Part shown: positions 8,246-63,927 of the stretch, piece by piece
Numbering within the stretch: position 1 is the stretch's first letter
Layout: every line of letters begins with the position of its first letter
Assembly (NCBI RefSeq): GCF_014645315.1
Contig: NZ_BMLQ01000007.1
Location: forward strand, 134,052 to 198,051
Direction: 5' to 3'
Source of the DNA: Citricoccus zhacaiensis
GTDB lineage: Bacteria; Actinomycetota; Actinomycetes; Actinomycetales; Micrococcaceae
Length of the DNA: 64,000 bases
Translations under genes and position numbers: made by a program
Notes under the pieces: model-generated
Told to the model about the DNA's origin: nothing
Seen by the model: the letters and a program-made list of their open reading frames with translations, nothing else
Databases searched by the model: none

Positions 8246-8312
8246 GCCCTCAATTTCCACTGTGGGCATTCTTTTCCCGGTGTTCATCTGAGGCCGTCGT
8301 CGGTCCGGGAGC

Positions 8313-8777
8313 TCACTCGGGATCGAGGCCGCGGTCGAGGTCTGGCTCTGGGTCGGTACGGCCGCGGAGCCGGTCCAGCTGGCGCCGGTCTCGCTTGGTG
8401 GGCCGGCCGGCGCCCCGGTCTCGGCGGGGCACGGCCAGCAGTTCGCGGGGCACGGGTTCGGGGGAGTGATCGAGGTAGTGCCGGACCGCCTCGGGGGCGC
8501 CGACCCGTTTGGCCACCAGACCGGTGACCTCGAGGATCCGCTCGCGGCCCGGGAGGCGCAACCGGATGGTGTCACCCGGCTTGACCGGCTGGGCGGCCTT
8601 GGCCGGCTGCCCGTTCAGGCGGACGTGACCGGCCCGGCACGCCGTGGTGGCCGCCGACCTGGTCTTGTACATGCGCACGCCCCAGAGCCAGGCATCCAAA
8701 CGGACCGAGCCGGCCGGCGTCGTGCTCACGCCCGCGCCCGGACGTGGACGCCGCGCGGAGGGGGTGGCGGAAGGCAT
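8313..8777 (-). CDS. S4-domain RNA-binding protein (Hsp15/YlmH-like)
   Basis: A 154-residue basic protein. The S4 RNA-binding domain is at about residues 25-90 (VRLDAWLWGVRMYKTRSAA...CRAGHVRLNGQPAK...VKPGDTIRL), followed by an Arg/Asp-rich tail with RRDRGAGRPTKRDRRQLDRLRG. This is the layout of Hsp15-type ribosome-associated proteins that bind 50S subunits with stalled nascent chains. The ATG at 8777 follows GGAGG and AGGA. It lies 64 bases downstream of the flavin reductase on the same strand and may be read from the same riboswitch-controlled promoter, although no functional link is obvious. Confidence 0.88.
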   Translation of the reverse strand: MPSATPSARRPRPGAGVSTTPAGSVRLDAWLWGVRMYKTRSAATTACRAGHVRLNGQPAKAAQPVKPGDTIRLRLPGRERILEVTGLVAKRVGAPEAVRHYLDHSPEPVPRELLAVPRRDRGAGRPTKRDRRQLDRLRGRTDPEPDLDRGLDPE

Positions 8778-8841
8778 GCCGGAAATCCTACCTCCGGACC
8801 GGACACCGGCCCCGAGGAACGCGGTGAGGAAGGACGTGAGC

Positions 8842-9396
8842 TTACTGGTTGCCCTCGGCGGTGCGCAGATTGCGGAAGGCCGAGCGGTGGAACACGATTG
8901 GCTCGTGTTCTGCGGAGTGGTCGTGCACGCCGTGCACCTCGAGCAGGACCATGGTGTGGTCACCGGCCGGCAGCTCGGAGTAGACGGTGGTGTCCAGCCA
9001 CAGGGCGGCGCCGTCCAGGAAGATCGCGCCCTGGTCCGTGGAGCGGATGTCCAGGCCGGCGAAGCGGTCTCCCTCCTTGGAGGCCAACTGGCGGCAGACG
9101 TCGGTGTGGTGCTCGCCGAGGATGGAGATCCCGATCCGCTCGGCCTGCTTCAACTGGGGCCAGGTGCGGGAGGTGTTCTGCACGGCGAAGGAGACCAGCG
9201 CCGGCTCCAGGGAGACACCGACGGTGAAGGAGGAGGCCACGAGGCCCTCCTTCGCACCGTTGGCGACTCCGGCGAGCGCGGCCACGCCGGAGGGGAAGTG
9301 GGAGAAGGCCGAGCGAAGGGTCTGTGTGGACAGGTCTCGATCGAGGTGAGTGCCGAGGTCGGCGGTCTGCTGGTCGTGGGTAGCCAGGGCGGTCAT
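8842..9396 (-). CDS. Flavin reductase family protein (SAM-riboswitch controlled)
   Basis: A 184-residue FMN-binding split-barrel flavin reductase. It shows the family pattern LRSAFSHFPSGVAALAG, then GLVASSFTVGVSLEPALVSFAVQNTSRTWP and the C-terminal HHRS-like region (PIVFHRSAFRNLR). Such enzymes reduce FMN or FAD with NAD(P)H and pass it to a two-component monooxygenase, for example those that desulfonate alkanesulfonates or oxidise dimethylsulfone. ATG 9396 has GGAGG 7 bases upstream. The leader contains a SAM-IV-type riboswitch, so expression should fall when S-adenosylmethionine is plentiful, which points to a role in sulfur/methionine supply. No monooxygenase partner is encoded nearby. Confidence 0.9.
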   Translation of the reverse strand: MTALATHDQQTADLGTHLDRDLSTQTLRSAFSHFPSGVAALAGVANGAKEGLVASSFTVGVSLEPALVSFAVQNTSRTWPQLKQAERIGISILGEHHTDVCRQLASKEGDRFAGLDIRSTDQGAIFLDGAALWLDTTVYSELPAGDHTMVLLEVHGVHDHSAEHEPIVFHRSAFRNLRTAEGNQ

Positions 9397-9469
9397 GGTG
9401 GGTCCTCCGTCCGAAGGCGCATCTGCACGGCGGTACGCCACGGGAACGTCCCGATCGGCACCAGCAGAA

Positions 9470-9592
9470 ACGCGGTACTTGCCTGCCGGGGCATCCGGTA
9501 GGCCGAATCCTCACCTGGAGCACCCCACTACTGCGTGAAGAGGGTTGCCGTCCCGCAAGCCAGGGCTGTAACAGCGGGAACTCGTGATTCTG
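9470..9592 (-). promoter_or_regulatory. SAM-IV-type riboswitch
   Basis: On the minus strand the leader shows, in order: P1 left arm GAATC (9590-9586) followed by ACGAG; P2 TCCCGC (9579-9574) paired with GCGGGA (9556-9551); the P2 loop CAGCCCTGGCTT; CGGCAACCCTC; GTGGGGTGC; then CCAGGTGA and the P1 right arm GATTC (9509-9505). CCTGG in the P2 loop (9564-9560) can pair with CCAGG (9518-9514), which is the SAM-IV pseudoknot. In mycobacterial SAM-IV RNAs the same positions are more GC-rich, so this looks like covariation. A CCGG/GGCAAG region follows as P5. It lies 74-110 bases upstream of the flavin reductase ATG. Identification is from memory of the consensus, not a covariance-model search. Confidence 0.82.
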
Positions 9593-9598
9593 TGTCCA

Positions 9599-9627
9599 GA
9601 CTAACGACGGACGTCCGGATCGGTCAA
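9599..9627 (-). promoter_or_regulatory. Promoter of the riboswitch transcript
   Basis: On the minus strand TTGACC (9627-9622) and TTAGTC (9604-9599) are 17 bases apart. The expected start of transcription, near 9592, falls just before the 5' end of the SAM riboswitch, which supports both calls. Confidence 0.6.
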
Positions 9628-9712
9628 AGGGTTTCCCGGACTATGAACCCGCGTGACCACCGCCCCACCGCTCCTCGGGACGTCCAGGCATGGCAGCTGG
9701 CGGGGCCGCAGG

Positions 9713-11020
9713 TCAGCGGAAGCGCAGGGAGACGGCCTCACCGTGGGCCGGCAGTCCCTCCGCCGCGGACAGGGAGGAGATCTTGGTGTCCAGCTCCTTC
9801 AGCCCCGTCTCCGTGTAGCGGATGAGCTGCTGCAGGCGCAGGAAGCTCACCGTGTTCAGCCCGGAGGAGTAGCGGGCGGAGCCGCCGGTGGGCAGCACGT
9901 GGTTGGAGCCGGAGGAGTAGTCGCCCAGCGGCACGGGCGAGTGCGGGCCCACGAACACGGCCCCGGCATTGGTCACCCGGCGGGCCGTCTGCAGGGGGTT
10001 CACGGTGTGGACCTCGAGGTGCTCGGCGGCGTAGGCGTCCGCCACGGCCAGCGCCTCGTCCAGGGTCCTCACGAGCAGGATCCCGGACTGCGGGCCGCCC
10101 AGGGCCTGGCGGATCTGCTCCTCGTGGAGACTTCCCGGCACCTGGCTCTCGATCTCGGCCGCCACGTCCCGGGCCAGCTCGGGCGAGGTGGTGATGAGCA
10201 CCGAGCCGGCCATGGGATCGTGCTCGGCCTGGCTGATGAGGTCGGCGGCGACCCACCGGGCATCGGCGGTGCCGTCTGCCAGTACGGCGATCTCGGTCGG
10301 CCCGGCCTCCGCATCGATGCCGATGGTGCCGAGGAGGGCGCGCTTGGCGGCGGCCACGAAGATGTTGCCCGGCCCCGTGACCATGTCCACGGGGGCACAC
10401 AGGCGGGTGCCGTCGTCGTCCGCCACTCCGTAGGCGAACATGGCCACCGCCTGGGCGCCGCCCGCGGCGTAGACCTCGTCCACGCCGAGCAGGGCGCAGG
10501 CCGCGAGGATGACAGGGTGCGGCAGACCGCCGAAGTCCTTCTGTGGCGGAGAGGCGACCGCGAGCGAGGCGACCCCGGCGGCCTGGGCCGGGACCACGTT
10601 CATCACCACGGAGGAGGGGTAGACGGCACGGCCGCCCGGAACGTAGAGACCCACGCGGTTCACCGGGACCCAGCGGTTCTCGACCACAGCCCCCTCCCCG
10701 AGCTCCACCTCGGACCCCGCGGGGACCTGGGCGGCGTGCACCTTGCGGGCGCGGTCGATGGACTCCTCGAGGGCGGCGCGGACCTCCGGGTCCAGGGACT
10801 CGAGCGCCTCGGCGAGCCTCTCGGCCGGCACGGCCAACGACGGCGGCCGGATCCCGTCGAACTGCTCGCCGAGATCCAGCACGGCCCGGGCCCCCTCGGT
10901 ACGCACCCGGTCCAGGATCGGCAACACCTTCGGCACGGCGGCGGCCACGTCGGTCTCGGCGCGGGGGAGCACCGTGGCGGGATCGTAGGTGCGGCCGCGC
11001 AGGTCCGTGGTGGCAAGCAT
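9713..11020 (-). CDS. hisD: Histidinol dehydrogenase
   Basis: A 435-residue enzyme that oxidises L-histidinol to L-histidine in two NAD-dependent steps, the last reactions of histidine biosynthesis, using a bound zinc. Family signatures are clear: [68 protein letters not shown] and the C-terminal [22 protein letters not shown]. Length matches the family (about 430). ATG 11020 follows AGGAG at 7 bases. In most actinobacteria hisD heads a hisDCBHAFI operon; here it is followed by the flavin-reductase unit, so hisD is detached or is a HisD paralogue acting on another alcohol. Confidence 0.95.
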
Positions 11021-63722: not shown

Positions 63723-63738
63723 GGAGGGACACTGTGAA

Positions 63739-63823
63739 CGACAGGGGAGCACCTTCGGGTGCTGAGAGTGCGCCCAGCGCAGACCCTCGAACCTGCTCCG
63801 GCTAGCACCGGCGAAGGAAGTCG
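63739..63823 (+). promoter_or_regulatory. TPP riboswitch (thi-box)
   Basis: The conserved elements are all present: ACAGGGGAGC, TGCTGAGAGTGCG, GACCCTCGAACCTGCTCCGG, GCTAGCACCGGCGAAGGAAG. The closing stem is CGAC (63739-63742) with GTCG (63820-63823). It binds thiamine pyrophosphate and lowers expression of thiamine genes. About 100 bases separate it from the next start codon. Confidence 0.95.
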
Positions 63824-63927
63824 AGTTCTCTGATGGAACGTCAGGAACCGTCCACCGGCATTCGTCTTCGAGTGCCCTCGGCGTACCGTTCCGTCCCCCT
63901 CCTTGCATCCTTGAGGAGGAACACCAC

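Follow-up and report, generated by a model that had tools for sequence, protein, structure and literature searches.

The window analyzed here is a stretch of 64,000 nucleotides from Citricoccus zhacaiensis, in which a flavin reductase gene is found on the minus strand behind a leader carrying a SAM-IV riboswitch (Table 1). The reductase contains a full PF01613 domain (profile positions 2-152 of 153), and its start is located 73 nt from the aptamer. The neighbouring genes are hisD upstream, and an S4/Hsp15-like gene, a cold-shock gene and an aldo/keto reductase gene downstream. None of these four scanned neighbours encodes a monooxygenase, in agreement with the original prediction of a reductase without an adjoining partner. 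The solved chains nearest to the protein are an NADH-FMN oxidoreductase (4ywn) and a flavin reductase (3pft), the latter of which we take to be DszD of Mycobacterium goodii. A putative role as an NAD(P)H:FMN reductase feeding a sulfur monooxygenase is suggested by the genomic company described below. Co-transcription of the S4 gene with the reductase is plausible, because the gap between them is only 64 nt and the two genes are adjacent in five of the 15 genera possessing a SAM-IV-led reductase (one genome per genus).

Table 1. Features of the reductase locus and their positions in the window.
Feature	Position	Strand	Basis
SAM-IV riboswitch aptamer (RF00634)	9589-9470	minus	cmscan 81.5 bits, gathering 38, E 5.7e-13
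P1 5' strand AAUC, extendable by G9590	9586..9589	minus	Rfam structure mapped, pair counts, P1 energies
P1 3' strand GAUU	9506..9509, pairs with 9586-9589	minus	Rfam structure, pair counts
PK-1 5' strand CCUGG (P2 loop)	9564-9560	minus	5 pairs, standard in 35/35 distinct rows
PK-1 3' strand CCAGG	9518-9514	minus	Pair counts in alignment
PK-2 5' strand ACGC (P3 loop)	9536-9533	minus	Own-versus-swapped test
PK-2 3' strand GCGU (3' tail)	9473-9470	minus	Own-versus-swapped test
P5 hairpin	9481..9503	minus	Rfam structure, alignment pair counts
-35-like TTGACC	9627-9622	minus	Read from sequence, leader conservation
-10-like TAGTCT (TAnnnT)	9603-9598	minus	Conserved in 18 leaders, missed by generic scan
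Likely ribosome binding site GGAGGA	9403..9408	minus	Read from sequence
Flavin reductase PF01613, DszD/HpaC-like, 184 aa	8842..9396	minus	Profile match E 4.5e-30
S4 RNA-binding (Hsp15-like) gene	8313..8777	minus	64 nt after reductase

A covariance search recovered the SAM-IV core that had been claimed in the reductase leader, with a match spanning the full RF00634 model (positions 1-116) and a score well above the gathering value. In the full-length model alignment the aptamer fits the SAM-IV architecture, being without P4 and having the P5 hairpin after P1, and the core positions T3, C4, G7 and A8 are invariant among 37 sequences. It is an ordinary member of SAM-IV, a known riboswitch class, and binding of SAM and regulation of the reductase are predicted from this membership. 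A cryo-EM structure exists for a mycobacterial SAM-IV riboswitch, and P1, P2, P3, P5, PK-1 and PK-2 and the lack of P4 are common to both RNAs (PMC6890682). The target gene is different, being a flavin reductase in the window.

The structure is supported by covariation in the alignment of 37 SAM-IV sequences (35 distinct rows). Over the whole structure 94.8% of the cells are paired compared to 82.2% in shuffles, and 19 of the 36 pairs change on both sides, against 13.9 in shuffles. Both-side changes occur in nine of the ten P5 pairs, where 82.6% of the cells are paired. The middle pair of PK-1 displays a C-G/U-A double change with 100% of the cells paired, and the pseudoknot between the P2 loop and the 3' side, originally described as CCTGG with CCAGG and as differing in a compensatory way, was thereby corroborated. 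The second pseudoknot PK-2, which was absent from the original prediction, is also present in the window. P3 loops are more complementary to their own tails than to exchanged ones, with none of 1000 swaps as good; this covers 88 of the 114 SAM-IV sequences, the other 26 having been omitted because the P3 loop or the tail pattern was not found. The same holds within the types, with 0/1000 for 27 aptamers of the AAUCA type and 1/1000 for 40 of the GGUCA type.

The promoter was read from the sequence, with a spacing of 18 nt between the -35-like and -10-like elements, and transcription is expected to start near position 9591, adjoining the first aptamer base. TTTGAC is present in all seven leaders of the reductase in the genus. 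Among 18 leaders from 16 genera, TTGAC occurs in 12, and TAnnnT hardly varies in its T, its A and its final T. A generic scan of positions 8300-9720 returned no promoter, its consensus being stricter than the TAnnnT form, so the reading is based on conservation instead; in this way the proposed start right at the aptamer gained support from the leaders. In Corynebacterium glutamicum, a SAM-IV riboswitch is located in front of cg1478, a different target gene from the reductase, and the leader start given by RNA-seq is 1,374,005, compared to 1,374,007 for the predicted aptamer (PMC3890552). This leader thus begins at its aptamer, as expected for the one in the window. No terminator-like site was detected in the leader by a generic terminator scan of the same region, and control at translation initiation is therefore the likeliest mode; the reductase is probably controlled at the translational level. 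Folding of the leader in a model that excludes pseudoknots and ligand gave an unconstrained minimum free energy structure in which the aptamer is disrupted (-85.7 kcal/mol, against -72.4 kcal/mol with the aptamer enforced). Within that model, the comparison of folds with and without the enforced aptamer displayed no clear switch sequestering the Shine-Dalgarno sequence.

The association between SAM-IV and the reductase is conserved in the Micrococcaceae. Of 90 close homologues examined, 85 have SAM-IV directly upstream, and these come from 16 genera. All but one of the 90 are among the 102 listed matches scoring at least 209 bits. Seven of the eight genomes of the window's genus carry the reductase (the one studied here and six with 73-94% identity), and all seven are SAM-IV-led. 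SAM-IV is also upstream in all of the next 23 homologues by profile score, in 38 of 40 selected from the profile listing to cover genera, and in 17 of a further 20 from the family. The five homologues without it come from one genome (G026) and from genus g19, in which all four genomes lack it; an NtaA-type gene is found in the reductase cluster of the two genomes whose surroundings were read, G026 and G019. None of four more distant homologues in the window's genus (29-41% identity) has SAM-IV in front, and the eighth genome of the genus, a 430-contig assembly, possesses only homologues of 37-41% identity, adjoining NtaA-like genes. Homologues at E <= 1e-25 were found by profile search in 154 of 295 Micrococcaceae genomes.

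A search of the same genome for flavin-dependent sulfur monooxygenases, which according to the original prediction would be encoded elsewhere and fed by the reductase, found candidate genes under SAM-IV. The genome contains three SAM-IV riboswitches over the cut-off, preceding metY-metX, the reductase in the window, and an SfnB-SfnB-NtaA-ABC transporter operon. The last encodes two proteins of the acyl-CoA dehydrogenase fold related to SfnB and DszC, a monooxygenase of the NtaA/DmoA family, and parts of a peptide/nickel-type ABC transporter. The two SfnB-like proteins score 223.3 and 244.6 bits to TIGR04022 against a cut-off of 430.9, and they are relatives rather than members of the SfnB equivalog by this measure, whereas the NtaA/DmoA-family protein reaches 490.9 bits to TIGR03860, above the cut-off of 279.7. 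The closest solved relatives of the first protein are a probable monooxygenase, DszC-type enzymes and methanesulfinate monooxygenase. Those of the third are hexachlorobenzene, alkane and dimethyl-sulfide monooxygenases, followed by riboflavin lyase, YtnJ and DszA. These SAM-IV-led monooxygenases probably pull sulfur from organic molecules. No PF01613 or PF03358 gene was found by profile search on the contig of this operon. In the whole genome there are two PF01613 genes, the reductase being one of them, and four PF03358 genes; the latter and the second PF01613 gene could be alternative sources of reduced flavin.

Co-occurrence was analyzed in one genome per genus from 32 genera, in which the genes following all 114 SAM-IV matches were inspected. 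Gene calling was mechanical, taking the next four genes at most over a distance of 5 kb, and it missed the second SfnB-like gene of the operon described above and the S4 gene in the window, which were known from other evidence. An SfnB-family gene is present in all 15 genomes with the SAM-IV-led reductase and in five of the 17 without (one-sided p 2.7e-5), while NtaA does not discriminate (14/15 versus 12/17, p 0.12). Across 295 genomes, an SfnB-family gene accompanies the SAM-IV-type reductase in 97 of 98 cases and is present in 71 of the 197 genomes without it. Genomes were counted as positive at a profile E value of 5e-57 or better, leaving out G026 and the four g19 genomes, which have neither SAM-IV nor SfnB and would change the count to 97/103. 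SAM-IV was seen upstream in 84 of the 98 positives, and the other 14 (13 from genus g23 and one from g14) were counted by profile score. The SfnB-family threshold of E 1e-40 was our own choice; matches above the NCBIfam equivalog cut-off occur in one of the 32 and three of the 295 genomes. Permutation within genera gave three of 20000 as high and the Cochran-Mantel-Haenszel test p 0.001, a signal coming mainly from a single genus (g32, 13/13 versus 1/10). Genera are not mutually independent, and the association is not free of shared ancestry.

SAM-IV-led monooxygenases, encoded by the first gene or by the second after an MFS gene, were found in seven of the 15 genomes with the SAM-IV-led reductase and also in five of the 17 without. 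To the latter can be added one further row in genus g6, in which SAM-IV is followed by a flavin reductase paralogue of 30% identity, an NMT1-type binding protein, an ABC ATPase, a permease, TauD (PF02668, E 6.5e-61) and NtaA. In another genus, a SAM-IV-MFS-NtaA unit is directly followed by SAM-IV-reductase-S4. For the other eight of the 15 genera, no monooxygenase was found in the genes that come first after a SAM-IV, and together with the five genomes lacking the SAM-IV-led reductase this indicates that the two halves are not generally under common SAM-IV control. The monooxygenases in those eight genera must be controlled otherwise.

Taking the evidence together, we consider it likely that the reductase supplies reduced FMN in trans to organosulfur monooxygenases under SAM-IV repression. 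When SAM, and hence sulfur or methionine, is plentiful, the riboswitch would repress the stand-alone NAD(P)H:flavin reductase, with an OFF polarity. As SAM falls, the unliganded leader would permit synthesis of the reductase, which would then provide diffusible reduced FMN to SfnB/DszC-like and NtaA/DmoA-like two-component monooxygenases. These clients would be encoded elsewhere, partly under a SAM-IV switch of their own in this genome, and would free sulfur from organosulfur compounds. The proposal that the reductase serves sulfur scavenging encoded elsewhere is strengthened, as a genomic inference, by the SAM-IV operon in the same genome, the retained linkage and the SfnB co-occurrence. A comparable division of labour is known from desulfurizing actinobacteria, in which a separate reductase, DszD, gives reduced flavin to such monooxygenases, and NADH, FMN and DszD of the 4S pathway are described as essential for bdsABC extracts (PMC3868597). 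A separate flavin reductase would likewise feed flavin-dependent desulfurization monooxygenases here, and proteins of the SAM-IV operon are related to DszC and DszA. The SAM-IV leader on the reductase distinguishes the present system from that of DszD.

Alternatively, the reductase may provide reduced FMN to a broad range of monooxygenases, some of them unrelated to sulfur, with SAM-IV reflecting one client only. All seven of its NCBIfam equivalog matches, among them HsaB, FerA, HpaC, StyB and RutF, fall below the cut-off; the matches to HsaB, FerA, HpaC and StyB would be compatible with a general role. The distribution, nearly all of it outside the family, points in the same direction: in a separate collection of 33 named homologues, SAM-IV is present in six, all from Micrococcaceae, and absent from 27, which belong to Microbacteriaceae, Mycobacteriaceae, uncultured actinobacteria, a few proteobacteria and one Arthrobacter. 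An NtaA-like gene was found in the examined flank of five of these 27. Two more NtaA/SfnB clusters in the genome, on contig C2 (L289, 3801-12857; L290, 7598-11660), lack both a SAM-IV over the cut-off and, at those places, any PF01613 or PF03358 gene, and are possible further clients of the reductase. However, such a general function accounts poorly for a SAM-IV linkage kept in nearly all close Micrococcaceae homologues and for the SfnB association across genomes, and we regard it as possible but somewhat unlikely.

The reductase aptamers belong to a distinct subtype. All 15 of them (one genome per genus) begin with AAU and use CCUGG/CCAGG, and the aptamer in the window, with AAUC/GAUU in P1, differs from the metY/metX type, which has GGUC/GACC in P1 and CCCGG/CCGGG in PK-1. 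The AAU/CCUGG type also precedes eight of 14 monooxygenase units, all four OsmC genes and two of four MetQ-type genes, but none of 33 metY/metX units; the MFS, OsmC and MetQ gene calls were backed by Pfam. In the 37-sequence alignment the shift spans pairs of P1, P2, PK-1 and P3 together. This distribution over targets denotes that the compensatory change in PK-1 marks an aptamer type of scavenging and uptake genes and is not a local oddity. Monophyly was tried in a tree of 82 aptamers, which separates the AAUC type only roughly; its best split has support of 0.0, leaving out four of 28 and including one foreign sequence. For the reductase aptamers, the split that fits best reaches a support of 0.858 but omits five of 14 and takes in two others. 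No monophyly is therefore claimed for either.

It could also be supposed that the reduced flavin serves an enzyme of methionine or thiol metabolism and not monooxygenases that cleave C-S bonds, given that no other class of SAM-IV targets in the sample is as numerous as the metY/metX units (33/114) and that OsmC-like genes share the aptamer type. This appears improbable, since no such partner was seen beside the reductase and its recurrent genomic company consists of monooxygenases of the FMNH2 type. A third alternative is that duplication left in the leader a degenerate or accidental imitation of the aptamer that has lost control of the reductase, as its Rfam score below the metY copy (81.5 versus 109.7 bits) might imply. 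This is very hard to reconcile with the near-invariance of the aptamer in the seven genus leaders while the stretch between aptamer and gene diverges, with the compensatory changes and both retained pseudoknots, and with a linkage retained in 16 genera.

Under the preferred reading of a flavin supply for organosulfur monooxygenases, the subtypes may further reflect different SAM thresholds. P1 is weaker in the reductase group, with a mean of -7.2 kcal/mol in 15 aptamers against -9.1 kcal/mol in 31 others, which would fit a different threshold as a hypothesis. A weaker P1 would need more SAM to be switched off, so a milder shortage of SAM would suffice to turn on scavenging and flavin supply than to turn on metYX. 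Tentatively, and with some doubt, we propose a two-tier sulfur regulon in the Micrococcaceae, consisting of a GGUC/CCCGG lineage for methionine synthesis and a weaker-P1 AAUC/CCUGG type for organosulfur scavenging and the shared flavin supply.

Two-component flavin monooxygenases are often encoded without an adjacent reductase gene, and which reductase serves them is then guesswork. Here the riboswitch points to the reductase, connects this enzyme with cellular SAM and allows its clients to be predicted, and the switch may turn on a shared flavin supply for sulfur scavenging at low sulfur. The combination of a conserved stand-alone supply of reduced flavin, its predicted control by SAM, and its tie to probable organosulfur monooxygenases elsewhere is supported by genome evidence. 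It gives direct access to the study of how soil actinobacteria scavenge organosulfur compounds, and it is a clear example of metabolite control over a cofactor supply that several enzymes share. No report of a flavin reductase as a target of a SAM riboswitch was found in the open-access literature searched, although the original SAM-IV description (Weinberg 2008) may mention flavin reductases.

Several other riboswitch matches were observed during the analysis. OsmC-like genes (PF02566 in 4/4) lie directly behind SAM-IV of the scavenging subtype at four loci in four genera. Eight SAM-IV matches are of an AGTAA(T/C)GAG type, and seven of them, all except L248, are followed by a gene whose product is 33-36% identical to MetY; at five loci a small gene with an N-terminus like MSYAGDLTPQ, presumably encoding a rhodanese-like protein, is found in between or at the front. 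Weaker RF00634 matches of a CTTCA type (L247, L256, L266, L279 and others) lie 300-450 nt before an unrelated-looking gene or no clear gene. Both types consist of weaker matches that were assigned to no class beyond "other" and may be cross-matches within the clan, those of the CTTCA type perhaps to another SAM class. The window also contains a TPP riboswitch at positions 63733-63836 on the plus strand, scoring 63.3 bits against a gathering value of 54.3.
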